Part shown: in pieces, positions 32,414-39,379 of the stretch
Numbering within the stretch: the stretch's first letter is position 1
Layout of the letters: each line of letters starts with the position of its first letter
Source: a virus
IMG/VR virus record: IMGVR_UViG_3300031553_000010
Location: 1 to 41,886 of that record
Strand: one strand, 5' to 3'
Length of the DNA: 41,886 nucleotides
Notes under the pieces: model-generated
What the model was told of the DNA's origin: nothing
Databases searched by the model: none
What the model saw: the letters and a program-made list of their open reading frames with translations, nothing else
Position numbers and translations under genes: made by a program

Positions 32414-32863
32414 GTGCCCGCTAAACCAACCACGCAACACGATCGTCGCTACCTGATCCGCCGCGACAACGACCACGCCCCGGGCATCAACCGGGACGAC
32501 TTGTCGTTGCTCATGGAGAGCTATCGCAATACGATCGAGCTGACTACCACTCTGCTCCAGCGCCAGGACAAATTGAACATCGCCCTGGAGGAGGTGGCCC
32601 GGCAGCTTACGGTGTTGGCCTCCAGCCAGACCGATGTCAATGCCGGTATCGGCCGCCTGCCCGGGGTCTTCGATGAGATGATCAACGTCTTGTGCGTCGG
32701 CGTTGCCGGTCGCATCGAGGTCTTGAGCAAAACCATCGACGGCAACCGCAAGGAGGAAACCGCCGAGCATAATGCCCACACCCTGCGCCTGTATGTGGCT
32801 TATGGCGTGCTGTGCACCATCATTCTGGCCTTGATCGGCCTCGGGATAAAAATATGGCCCTGA
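32414..32863 (+). CDS. coiled-coil protein with C-terminal membrane anchor
   Basis: 149 residues from GTG 32414. The first 25 are basic. Residues 28-110 are helical with heptad character (LSLLMESYRNTIELTTTLLQ, LNIALEEVARQLTVL). The end YVAYGVLCTIILALIGLGIKI is one membrane helix. The layout recalls XhlA-type holin partners. It overlaps the REC-PAS gene by 10 bases, so the two are co-expressed and perhaps membrane-linked. Confidence 0.6.
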   Translation: MPAKPTTQHDRRYLIRRDNDHAPGINRDDLSLLMESYRNTIELTTTLLQRQDKLNIALEEVARQLTVLASSQTDVNAGIGRLPGVFDEMINVLCVGVAGRIEVLSKTIDGNRKEETAEHNAHTLRLYVAYGVLCTIILALIGLGIKIWP

Positions 32864-33690
32864 CCATCACCACGCCCCAATATTTTGTTTATGTGCTGGA
32901 GGACGAGTCACAGATTATCAATGTGATTCGTGGCTTTCTCATTACTCGTCCGGAAATCGTGGTGCGGTCCTTCACCCATTTGGAACCGCTGCTGGCCGAT
33001 GCCAACCTGGCGCACGCCGATCTATTTATCCTTGACATCAACCTGGACGATACCCTGAGCGGATTTGATGTTCCTGATCGGCTGCCCATGCGTTGCCGTT
33101 TCGCGGGCTTCCTTTTTATCTCGGGTTACCCGGTTGAATCCGAGCAATACAATCGGGCCGCGGGTCTGCCGCTGTTTGATTTTATCGCCAAACCGTTTAC
33201 CATGCAGCAATTCAAGCACCGCGTCGATTTGTTGCTGGCGGCGCGTTTCAAGATCCCGCCGGGGTTGAATGATCGCCTGATCGCTCAGTGGGCCCGTGAA
33301 TCATTTTTGTCCGTTGTGCTGGATGCGGATAATAATGTCCGTCTGTGCAACCGTCATTTGGCTTTGGCCCTGGGCGTCAAGCATGTCGATGAAATTATCG
33401 GCCGGCCGTGGGCCGAGCTGATCCCGATTATCGACCGGCCGCCGGATCCCGCTGCGGATGCGGATGAGGCTCCGCGTTTGCGCTGGGTGCGATCCGATTT
33501 CGAGAGCGTCGACGGCGCGCCCATGACGCTCCTGTTGGGTGTCTATACCGATGCCAAGGATCTGCGCGCCGAACGCCTGCGCCGTTTTTACCAGGAAATC
33601 CTGCAGGCCGATCGGGCCGCCATCCAGTCAATACAACCCCTGCCGCGGATCGACACGCCGGTCAGGAAACCAAAAAAGGATGCCCCGTGA
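32854..33690 (+). CDS. REC-PAS signalling protein (response-regulator-like)
   Basis: 278 residues from ATG 32854. Residues 10-125 are a receiver domain with every key residue: acidic pair Glu16-Asp17 (VLEDES), phospho-acceptor Asp61 (FILDINLD), Ser90 (LFISGYP) and Lys113 (IAKPF). Residues 150-255 look like a PAS sensor domain (FLSVVLDADNNVRLCNRHLA, GVKHVDEIIGRPWAELIPII, MTLLLGVYTDAK). There is no kinase, HTH or output enzyme. It is flanked by a coiled-coil membrane protein and the M15 endolysin, overlapping both, so it is part of the lysis operon. It could let host phosphorelay or redox state act on lysis, or sequester a host signal. This is inference. Confidence 0.85.
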   Translation: MALTITTPQYFVYVLEDESQIINVIRGFLITRPEIVVRSFTHLEPLLADANLAHADLFILDINLDDTLSGFDVPDRLPMRCRFAGFLFISGYPVESEQYNRAAGLPLFDFIAKPFTMQQFKHRVDLLLAARFKIPPGLNDRLIAQWARESFLSVVLDADNNVRLCNRHLALALGVKHVDEIIGRPWAELIPIIDRPPDPAADADEAPRLRWVRSDFESVDGAPMTLLLGVYTDAKDLRAERLRRFYQEILQADRAAIQSIQPLPRIDTPVRKPKKDAP

Positions 33691-34109
33691 GACCCGACCA
33701 GTGGAGGAAAGTCGATTATTTCTCCCCGGATGAGAACTGGGGCGACCCGGCAAAAATGGTGCCCGAGCTGGTATTCATCCTTGATCGCCTGCGGGGCTAC
33801 CTGGGCGTGCCGATAATCGTGCATTGCGGCTATGAACCGCGCGATGGCAAAGGTTATCATCCTCGCGGCATGGCCGTTGACTGCCACGCCGTGGGCCTGA
33901 ACGTCATTCAGTTTTTTATCGGGGCGATGCGTTTCGGCTTCAACGGCCTGGGCGTTTACACTTGGTGGAATAATCCCGGGTTGCATCTGGATGTCCGGCC
34001 GTTGCCGGCGGACGGACCCCGAGCCATATGGGGATCGCTTGCTAAAAAAATGTATGTGCCCTTTGATCTCGATTTTTTGCAATTTGCAACAAATGACCAA
34101 TCTGCATGA
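33687..34109 (+). CDS. endolysin, M15 peptidase
   Basis: 140 residues from GTG 33687 (GTGA overlap). The M15A/VanY-like zinc site is visible: His58 (GYHPRGMAVD), Asp65, and His100 (GLHLDV), with YEPRDGKGYHPRG beforehand. It cuts peptide stems of peptidoglycan, freeing progeny. No signal peptide or wall-binding domain, so it needs a holin for release; candidates lie at 34545 and 32414. The final codons run over the first copy of an 18-bp direct repeat. Confidence 0.85.
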   Translation: MRPDQWRKVDYFSPDENWGDPAKMVPELVFILDRLRGYLGVPIIVHCGYEPRDGKGYHPRGMAVDCHAVGLNVIQFFIGAMRFGFNGLGVYTWWNNPGLHLDVRPLPADGPRAIWGSLAKKMYVPFDLDFLQFATNDQSA

Positions 34110-34130
34110 TTTATTTTTTGCAATTTGCAA
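34072..34130. repeat. 18-bp direct repeat across the endolysin stop
   Basis: ATTTTTTGCAATTTGCAA occurs at 34072-34089, within the last endolysin codons, and again at 34113-34130, just ahead of the phospholipase-like gene. The core TTGCAATTTGCAA is itself nearly palindromic. It may be a duplication scar or a regulatory pair. Confidence 0.8.
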
Positions 34131-34143
34131 AAATGGGAGCAGC

Positions 34144-34629
34144 ATGATGATGAAACTATTGACGCCGGAGGGTTTCGACCAGCTGACCCCCGAGCAGATC
34201 ATGGCCAACACGAACGGCTGAGGTCCGGCGGGCTGGGGCTGGTTGGTCCCGAACAAGCTGTGGTGGATTGGGGTCGATTTTTATATCGCCTGCGTCATTC
34301 ACGATATCTGCTATTGGATGGGGATCGACAAGGCTGATGCGGATAGAATGTTCCTCGGCAATCTGCAGTTGATCGTGGCCGAGCAGGCCTGGGAAATAGT
34401 CAAGCCGGTGGCCTACCATTATGCTTTTATCTATTACCTGGCGGTCAAGAACGGCGGCGCCGGTTTTTATCAACGGGCCATCGCCATTGCAATGCTGGAG
34501 ACAACCGAACTGATCGATTCAACCGGAAAAGGTGAGAATTCAAAATGGCCGGTGACGAAGTCGATGTGGTCCTCGAAAAGGATCTTGGAGAACAGAAGCA
34601 GATCGGCATGTGGGGCTCGCTGTGCCTGA
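34144..34629 (+). CDS. phospholipase A2-like protein with in-frame UGA (candidate selenoprotein)
   Basis: The frame ATG 34144 to 34629 is one run of 161 residues interrupted only by TGA at 34219-34221. Across it the reading is ANTNG-UGA-GPAGWGWLVP, then ACVIHDICYWMG. Phage relatives as I remember them read NGCGP...(F/V)P...ACNIHDxxY with Cys at the UGA site. That region is the calcium loop, and C-x2-HD-x-C (residues 50-56) is the phospholipase A2 catalytic motif. A codon change from TGC or TGT to TGA is what a Cys-to-Sec replacement looks like. A hairpin 16 bases after the UGA could serve as SECIS. Alternatives are a nonsense mutation or a base error. The last 28 codons overlap the next gene and may not be used. 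Confidence 0.55.
34238..34258 (+). promoter_or_regulatory. candidate bacterial SECIS hairpin
   Basis: GCTGGTT (34238-34244) pairs with AACAAGC (34252-34258) in six of seven positions around the loop GGTCCCG, which starts with GGU as in known bacterial SECIS loops. The loop begins 23 bases after the UGA, inside the distance normally allowed. The stem is short and holds one G-A mismatch, so it is suggestive, not decisive. Confidence 0.4.
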
Positions 34630-35021
34630 TCGTCGCGGCCATAGCGCACACCATGGCCACTGCTGATGTCGTCGAGATGACTAATTTTTTCCGGAACCTG
34701 TTTCGGATGTTCCTGGCGCTGATCATATTGATCGGCAGCGGTTGGGTGGTTTACCGGATTTCCATGGTAAAAGAGGCTGACCTCAACCAGTATGCCGGCG
34801 TGATCATCGGTTTCGTGACAAGCTCGGCACTCATGGCGGTGATCGGTTTTTATTTCGGCGGCCAGGATCGATCCAAGTTGCCGGATGAAGATGCGGCCGG
34901 CAAGGTTGATCAAACCCAATCGAAAACAGACGCCGCTTTTCTCGCGATGATAGATCGAGTGAAGGAAGAAGAGGAACGCAAGCGGGTGGAGGCGGAAAAA
35001 ACAAAGGCCATGGAAAAATGA
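34545..35021 (+). CDS. holin-like membrane protein
   Basis: 158 residues. Three membrane helices are likely: GMWGSLCLIVAAIAHTMATA (21-40), MFLALIILIGSGWVVYRIS (55-73) and YAGVIIGFVTSSALMAVIGF (83-102), then a long charged tail of Glu and Lys. Size, three helices and a charged end fit a class I holin. It follows the endolysin and phospholipase-like genes. The start overlaps the end of the previous frame; AAGGTGAG lies in front. Confidence 0.7.
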   Translation: MAGDEVDVVLEKDLGEQKQIGMWGSLCLIVAAIAHTMATADVVEMTNFFRNLFRMFLALIILIGSGWVVYRISMVKEADLNQYAGVIIGFVTSSALMAVIGFYFGGQDRSKLPDEDAAGKVDQTQSKTDAAFLAMIDRVKEEEERKRVEAEKTKAMEK

Positions 35022-37467: not shown

Positions 37468-38091
37468 TCACTCCTTGGTGTAATTCATGATTTCCTTGTA
37501 CAGGTTTTTGACTTCCTCGACGGCTTTTTTATCCGCCATCTCGACAACTCCTTTCCCCTCTGCGAAAGCATTTTTATAGACGATTCTGGAGCAAAGAGGC
37601 GACGATAAAAGGCCCGCGTCTTTCTCAAAATATTGCATTGCTGCAATGATTTCGACCGCCAGGCGTGTGTTGTGAATCACCTGGTTGAGCACAAAAAAAG
37701 CCGGTATATCCCGGTAGGTTCGTGCCTCCCGCAAAATTTCGATGACGTCCCCAGCCGCCCAAAAGTCCACCGCTGACGGCAGACAGGGGATGAGTAAAAG
37801 ATCGGCCGCCAGTATGGCGGACCTGAAAGCCTTGCTGTCACGCCCGCCGGCGTCGATGATTATCAGATCGTGGGTAAATTGATGCAGATCCTTGTGGATG
37901 GTGGGCGTGGTGATCTGGATGGCCTGGATGTCATCGCTTTCCCGCGATGCACGAAAAGCGATTGAGGTCCCTTGTGTGTCCGCATCCACGATCAAGACAG
38001 ACCTGCCGCTGATGGCTGCCATGACGGCCAGGTTGCAGGCAATGGTTGATTTGCCGACCCCGCCCTTTGTCGATCCTACCGTGATTATCAT
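37468..38091 (-). CDS. parA: ParA-family partition ATPase, type Ib (ParF-like)
   Basis: 207 residues leftward. Deviant Walker A KGGVGKST (residues 9-16), ADTQGT switch (about 37-42) and LIIIDAGG (about 74-81). It lacks an N-terminal HTH and has the length of ParF, so it is a small ParA. The gene lies between repA and a ribbon-helix-helix gene, exactly the plasmid pattern. It ratchets plasmid copies to daughter cells. A promoter lies in the 70-bp gap before it. Confidence 0.92.
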   Translation of the reverse strand: MIITVGSTKGGVGKSTIACNLAVMAAISGRSVLIVDADTQGTSIAFRASRESDDIQAIQITTPTIHKDLHQFTHDLIIIDAGGRDSKAFRSAILAADLLLIPCLPSAVDFWAAGDVIEILREARTYRDIPAFFVLNQVIHNTRLAVEIIAAMQYFEKDAGLLSSPLCSRIVYKNAFAEGKGVVEMADKKAVEEVKNLYKEIMNYTKE

Positions 38092-38161: not shown

Positions 38162-39328
38162 TTACTCCGCCCGTCGAATTTTACCTTCCTGGATCAGCTT
38201 TATTATCGGGCCGGCCGTTAAACAACCGCCGGATTCCGGCCAAATACAATCATTTTCATCGATGGTGTACTCCTGATGCTGGTAAACGATTTTCATGCCG
38301 GCTGCTATCATCGGCGGCGTGTCTATTTCGGGGAAAAGGCGCAATTGTTTGGGGTTGAACTTGGCGCCCAGGTCTTTTTTTAGGACAGTTCCCAAATAGG
38401 CGGCAAAATCAACCGGGTTACGATATTTGGTATAGGCGACGCTGCGCAGCACATAGTTTTCTCCATGACTTTCCAAATAGTCTGTGATGTCTCTCAGGAT
38501 GTCGTGATGGCAGCGTAATTGTTCGGGCACATGCTGGAGGATATCCTCGGGGATGTCTAACATTATTGGGATCCCGGTAACGTCAATTTCTTTACCGCTG
38601 CCATTTTTAATGAATGTTTTTTTCAGGGGTTTGATGGTGAACCGGAGCCACTTTACGGTCCGGCCTTGTTTGATTTGTTTGTAAGTGAAACTGATGTCTG
38701 TTTTTTTGGGTAGTTCTCTTTTTGCTACCTCGATTGTGAATTTTTTAAAGTTGAAATATTGGACTAATTTATCATCGGGAACGCCCAATTTATTGCGCAA
38801 TTCATTGAGTTCGAATGTTCTTTCTTTGGTTTCGGTATTCGCATACTGCTTGAGTAGTTCGTACAGTCTGATGCTATACACGGAACGCATTTTCATCACG
38901 TTCCCGATCCGGTATCTCGTGAACCGTCCCGTTGCCTTGAGCTGTAACAAATAAGGCCGTAATTCGGGGGGGAAACTAAAGCCGATTGTTTTTTCCGATA
39001 GTTTTTCGACGGCGGTGACGGCAAAGGGGATATTGAGCCGCACGTCGTTTTCCGCGTCATAGACCTCGATATCCGTTTTCCTTAGTTCGCGCACAGCTTC
39101 GACCAGCTCTTTGAAATAGTCTGTCCGGCCTTTGATGCCTGCCAGTTTTTTGTAATCATCAACATTGATCATGTAAAATTTGAAAACATCGTCATCAGGC
39201 TGGATCTGCGCAATGGCATAGAGCATCGTTTTTTTTGCATTCAACTTTAAACGATAGATCCCCTCGATCAGTGGGTTGCCTTGATAGACCAGGTGGTGCT
39301 TTTTAATTTCCTTTTGCGGTTTTTCCAC
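38162..39328 (-). CDS. repA: plasmid replication initiator, Rep_3 family
   Basis: 388 residues leftward. The start is GTG 39328 because AAAGGAG lies five bases upstream; the frame is open to ATG 39376 without a site. HHLVYQGNPLIEGIYRLKLN, LYAIAQIQPDDDVFKFYMIN and VYSIRLYELLKQYANTETKE mark the two winged-helix domains of Rep_3 (RepE/Pi-like) initiators. It would bind the iterons at 39380-39479 and recruit DnaA and helicase. The last 100 residues are less conserved. Confidence 0.9.
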   Translation of the reverse strand: MEKPQKEIKKHHLVYQGNPLIEGIYRLKLNAKKTMLYAIAQIQPDDDVFKFYMINVDDYKKLAGIKGRTDYFKELVEAVRELRKTDIEVYDAENDVRLNIPFAVTAVEKLSEKTIGFSFPPELRPYLLQLKATGRFTRYRIGNVMKMRSVYSIRLYELLKQYANTETKERTFELNELRNKLGVPDDKLVQYFNFKKFTIEVAKRELPKKTDISFTYKQIKQGRTVKWLRFTIKPLKKTFIKNGSGKEIDVTGIPIMLDIPEDILQHVPEQLRCHHDILRDITDYLESHGENYVLRSVAYTKYRNPVDFAAYLGTVLKKDLGAKFNPKQLRLFPEIDTPPMIAAGMKIVYQHQEYTIDENDCIWPESGGCLTAGPIIKLIQEGKIRRAE

Positions 39329-39379
39329 GGCGGCTCCTTTGAATAGATTATAATTTGAGTTTTCCCGAATATACATAAA

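Follow-up and report, generated by a model that had tools for sequence, protein, structure and literature searches.

Known bacterial selenoproteins (PMC1088965, PMC13188914) are mostly cellular redox enzymes, and a 2026 review on them names no phage, virus or phospholipase (PMC13188914). According to the bSECIS model of that review, a hairpin is expected at a distance of 16-37 nt after the UGA codon, with a stem of 4-16 bp, a loop of 3-9 nt that has a G in its first two positions, and an MFE of -7.5 kcal/mol or lower. An earlier hint of phage selenocysteine (Sec) biology comes from Basilisk-like Bacillus phages, which carry a tRNA-Sec gene and for which no selenoprotein was reported (PMC6145125). 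In the literature searched, no description of a phage selenoprotein was found; as only open-access papers were covered, this is no proof of novelty. On the protein side, the closest described systems are the phospholipase A2 (PLA2) of Streptomyces violaceoruber (PF09056, PDB 1faz) and the PLA2-domain proteins of Vibrio phage 1.097.O (AUR87155.1) and a Thiohalocapsa phage (WBC28526.1).

The locus analyzed here lies in the IMG/VR record IMGVR_UViG_3300031553_000010, whose 41,886 bases are referred to as the window and include terminase, portal, head-protease fusion and tape-measure genes. Like bacterial selenoprotein genes, it combines a UGA at a Cys column, found in at least two different sequences, with a downstream bSECIS-like hairpin, whereas its product would be a phage-encoded hydrolase with Sec in a structural bond. 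Compared with the Basilisk-like phages, the window harbors a putative selenoprotein gene, but neither tRNA-Sec nor any other tRNA was found in it (ARAGORN); records with UGA genes likewise yielded no tRNA, and tRNA-Sec was not found in six of them (Rfam model). The likeness to the Streptomyces enzyme rests on a profile match and on the aligned catalytic motif and later Asp; in contrast to PF09056 proteins, the phage gene has no evident signal peptide, adjoins endolysin-like genes and carries UGA at the first Cys. The Vibrio and Thiohalocapsa phage proteins belong to the same family as the window protein, but have Cys where the window has UGA. We consider it very likely that the window phage encodes a PLA2-like selenoprotein of the lysis module in which UGA is read as Sec, although this decoding is inferred and not shown chemically. 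With the same reservation, these genes are likely to represent the first family of bacterial-virus selenoproteins, lysis-module phospholipases in which Sec repeatedly replaced one Cys of a structural Cys-Cys pair.

The in-frame UGA and its column in the family

34135-34139, plus strand: GGGAG, probable Shine-Dalgarno sequence, judged from the sequence
34144-34629, plus strand: gene of the proposed PLA2-like selenoprotein, read through UGA; 161 residues, ending with TGA at 34627-34629
34219-34221, plus strand: proposed Sec codon (TGA) at residue 26, in frame; most relatives have Cys here, seven other members UGA
34291-34293, plus strand: codon of Cys50 (TGC), which is proposed to bond with residue 26, based on joint loss in L003, L008, L022 and L109
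34300-34305, plus strand: His53-Asp54, catalytic His and calcium Asp of PLA2; invariant in 46 sequences and aligned to the HD of 1faz

The TGA at residue 26 is in frame with the ATG at 34144, the frame then remains open up to the terminal TGA, and this interruption of a PLA2-like open reading frame is a real observation. The conserved domain reaches to about residue 110, and the last 85 bases of the gene are shared with the next gene. Both halves of the frame form one protein. When the read-through protein was searched against phages (tblastn), the relative from Thiohalocapsa phage LS06-2018-MD03 aligned across the TGA site with 35% identity over residues 17-108 and showed Cys at the UGA column. 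A second early relative came from Vibrio plasmids. Searches with the window protein alone gave no matches in viral and genome collections, and the family became reachable only after the phage and plasmid matches supplied an alignment. Seeded by these three sequences, it retrieved 69 loci in IMG/VR and 16 in genomes, many of the latter from Desulfobacterota. None of approximately 88 relatives from the protein search has an internal stop within the domain; flags for an internal TGA in G722, G603 and G840 were rejected, as they mark terminal stops of Cys-type genes. No family match came from the records of terminase relatives of the window phage, many of which are fragments. Counting the pattern GGNTGAGG locally was uninformative.

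Relatives have Cys in the UGA column. Counted together with column 50, 67 rows were Cys/Cys and three Ala/Ala; one further Leu/Cys row was not inspected and is assumed to be a misplaced motif match. The exceptions at the UGA column are L003, L008 and L022 with Ala and L109 with Met, and possibly L110 (NECG), where the alignment is uncertain. In the first three the Cys preceding His-Asp is likewise replaced by Ala, and in L109 by Gly. That both are lost together points to a disulfide linking positions 26 and 50, and such a bond is the likely state of the Cys pair in the relatives, although it is inferred from co-loss only. We take the pair to be the conserved PLA2 disulfide linking the calcium loop to the position three residues ahead of the catalytic His, a correspondence that is untested. 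The original prediction of one frame and one protein across the TGA, with UGA where relatives have Cys, held on both points, since relatives align across the site and most of them possess Cys. Its motif C-x2-HD-x-C failed in part: the second Cys (residue 56) does not fall in a conserved column, and the conserved partner is Cys50.

IMG/VR was also scanned with DNA patterns consisting of a fixed TGA-GG, a gap and C-x-x-H-D-x-x-Y. Accepted matches were in frame and also contained conserved blocks of the family that the pattern did not include; those out of frame, or not resembling the family, served as background. These scans revealed seven further distinct members with an in-frame TGA at exactly the column of the window (L115, L185, L199, L250, L281, L261 and L283). 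For L185, two more contigs from the same sample are identical over 410 bases, giving three identical contigs in all. The tripeptide U-G-P is common to all UGA members of the family, its P being required only by the last scan pattern. L151, a distant PLA2-like relative with UGA, is a ninth UGA gene and is counted apart from the family, both for its distance and because TGA stops are rare in its record. It spans L151:4057-4323, starts with GTG, has UGA as its sixth codon (MRKDYUGPFWFP) and shows a hairpin loop AGUUA. Thus the question raised with the prediction, whether other relatives carry UGA, is answered positively by seven distinct members and the distant L151. Because these seven members have UGA in the same column, the in-frame UGA of the window is beyond chance, and at least eight distinct phage members of the family, window included, would use Sec where most relatives use Cys; the use of Sec itself is inferred. 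On a tree of 69 rows the distribution of UGA requires four changes, at least two of which are forced by well-supported branches. The window clusters with L250 and L281 (support 91/91), but the branches are long. All UGA members are metagenome sequences, and their TGA codons are without demonstrated read support.

Relationship to phospholipase A2 and gene neighbourhood

The family profile matched solved PLA2 structures (1faz, E=1.8e-8; 4aup, E=3.9e-7), and PF09056 was matched by 37 of 49 family members at E<=1 (best 1.5e-5), the window protein alone giving no match to this model. The family aligns with 1faz in PD-x-x-x-G...A-C-x-x-H-D-x-x-Y and in a later Asp. The window protein contains the C-x-x-H-D-x-x-Y helix and the second Asp (Cys50, His53-Asp54, Tyr57 and Asp67). 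Its predicted structure (pLDDT 87.7) had as best match in a viral structure library an annotated phage PLA2-domain protein (E=6e-5, TM 0.68), and a fold search of the PDB with the model gave no PLA2 match. These results show that the family to which the window protein belongs is related to prokaryotic PLA2, whereas its enzyme activity is inferred. Hence the prediction of a PLA2-like protein held, on the basis of the family profile and the catalytic motif, and the gene adjoins an endolysin-like one. DUF1353, matched weakly by 41 of 49 members, may be distantly related to this PLA2 family. PLA2-like domains carrying W-C-G-S-G or a motif resembling it were also observed in the bacterial proteins L172, L174, L180, L291, L292 and L310, some of which are very long, with open frames of up to 2439 aa.

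33687-34109, plus strand: M15-like peptidase, probable endolysin, directly upstream; PHROG 894 endolysin (E=4.9e-6), weak Peptidase_M15 matches
34545-35021, plus strand: membrane protein, apparently with transmembrane segments, whose gene overlaps the PLA2-like gene at its 3' end; judged by sequence only, no Pfam match

The M15-like endolysin of the window shares 35% identity with the gene that precedes the UGA gene of L281. The upstream genes encode NlpC/P60 in L261, Amidase_3 in L115 and, by inspection, probable peptidases in G415 and G416, so that cell-wall-hydrolase genes precede most UGA genes. This arrangement makes a role of the PLA2-like protein at lysis likely, but the role remains an inference. 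The overlapping membrane protein could be a lysis partner, a possibility inferred from sequence alone. The Cys relative of Vibrio phage 1.097.O adjoins a terminase, and the endolysin linkage is therefore not universal. L080, the closest endolysin relative, has no family gene adjoining its endolysin; a DUF1353-like gene (L080:5597-6004), recognized by inspection, adjoins this homologue of the window endolysin.

Further features were observed in the window. Directly upstream of the endolysin-like gene, the phage gene at 32812-33690 (plus strand) encodes a response-regulator receiver domain (E=6e-9) with a weak PAS match. The near-palindrome TTTTTGCAATTTGCAA occurs in two copies 41 bases apart (34074-34092 and 34115-34133), just upstream of the putative selenoprotein gene; five matches were observed on both strands of the window versus 0.8 expected by chance, and the element may be an operator. 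On the minus strand, a ParA-type ATPase (CbiA/ParA, E=2.8e-14) at 37468-38091 is encoded next to an initiator of plasmid replication of the Rep3 type (E=7e-31) at 38162-39376. Due to this pair, the window virus may be a phage-plasmid, which we regard as a possibility only.

Hairpins downstream of the UGA codons

34234-34251, plus strand: hairpin proposed as the bacterial SECIS, with a 7-bp stem (UGGGGCU/GGUCCCG) and the loop GGUU at 34241-34244; minimum-energy fold

The hairpin of the window is located 19 nt after the UGA and folds with -19.2 kcal/mol. The hairpin originally proposed (34238-34258) is a possible pairing, but the one given here is that of the minimum-energy fold and fits the SECIS model better, so this claim held in part. 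Across the UGA genes, the minimum-energy fold satisfied the bSECIS model in eight of nine cases, compared with 12 of 76 Cys relatives (Fisher p=2e-5). The loops of the eight fitting genes are GGUU (three), GGCU, GGAU, GGUC and AGUUA (two). The ninth gene, L115, has a stable hairpin without a G starting the loop and fits the model only as a suboptimal fold. In hairpin energy the UGA genes rank near the top among the Cys relatives (Mann-Whitney p=4e-5).

The hairpins were separated from the protein sequence by redrawing synonymous codons from each phage's own usage. The resulting p values were 0.018-0.13 across the seven family members having a model-type hairpin. With L115 set to 1, combining them gave p=4e-4; when only the weaker one of each close pair was retained and L151 omitted, the combined value was p=0.005. 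Cys relatives, used as control, were uniform (Fisher p=0.44). The codon choice is visible in the peptide GDWLVP, for which UGA genes use GGG for Gly, CCT for Pro and GTC or GTT for Val, producing codons that pair, whereas the Cys genes L028, L033 and L071 encode the same peptide with codons lacking such pairing. Taken alone, the window hairpin does not exceed what chance would give (synonymous-codon p=0.13; dinucleotide shuffles z=-0.86), and significance emerges only across the set of UGA relatives. Covariation was not significant across six hairpins, Rfam gave no real match at the UGA/hairpin site, and relatedness is not fully corrected in the hairpin and UGA statistics.

Host, alternative explanations and meaning

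Terminases at most 49% identical to that of the window phage, over most of the protein, were found in Desulfobacterota genomes. SelB, the only component of the Sec machinery considered there, exceeded its curated cut-off in all 11 of the Desulfobacterota genomes examined for it, each of which contains related phage genes. This agrees with the original suggestion that a Desulfobacterota host may have the machinery, but the host of the window phage is unidentified and any assignment is inferred. Only Cys forms and no UGA form occurred in the approximately 1,000 Desulfobacterota genomes searched, and therefore no UGA phage could be linked to a host with Sec machinery.

Three alternatives to Sec decoding were considered. 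Programmed readthrough or stop suppression could insert an ordinary residue such as Trp or Cys, perhaps limiting a dangerous lysis enzyme. A conserved UGA with a downstream hairpin is also compatible with this explanation, and Sec machinery is unshown for these hosts. However, the UGA lies exactly at the Cys column, the partner Cys is retained, and the hairpins have the position and the G-containing loops of the bSECIS model, which leaves ordinary readthrough very unlikely.

A nonsense mutation in a dead gene, or a sequencing or assembly error at a Cys codon, was named as the main rival in the original prediction. It requires a single step from TGC or TGT to TGA, the window is a single metagenomic record, and its hairpin could be due to chance. 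Against it, TGA recurs in the same column in seven other distinct members, including three identical contigs of one sample, and the relatives show no internal domain stop. In addition, conservation persists on either side of the UGA, and the hairpins go with the UGA. The recurrence weakens this rival to a very improbable one.

A changed genetic code with TGA as an ordinary sense codon is all but ruled out, as TGA ends 24 of 46 window open reading frames, including both flanking genes (the endolysin-like and the overlapping membrane gene), which excludes genome-wide reassignment for the window, and is a common stop also in G013, G415, G416 and G417; only for L151, where TGA stops are rare (3/76 open reading frames), is it not excluded.

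Sec decoding thus remains the preferred reading, and the original interpretation is supported by a stronger case than its reader could know. In the proposed mechanism, host SelB would bind the hairpin and bring Sec-tRNA to UGA26. Sec26 would take the place of Cys in the N-G-C-G motif, close to the calcium loop, and its probable bonding partner would be Cys50, three residues before His53-Asp54, with Asp67 as the second catalytic residue. The enzyme would probably attack host membrane phospholipid at lysis, alongside the neighbouring cell-wall peptidase. A selenenylsulfide forms more readily than a disulfide and withstands reduction better. It is a matter of speculation that such a bond may suit sulfidic, anoxic hosts, or that slow Sec insertion may delay a dangerous enzyme until late.

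If this reading is true, phages exploit the Sec decoding of their hosts, and the production of a lysis-module enzyme would depend on selenium supply. Standard gene calling would truncate such genes at the UGA and thus overlook them. Sec would then serve in a structural bond of a hydrolase, outside redox catalysis, where its benefit would be directly testable.
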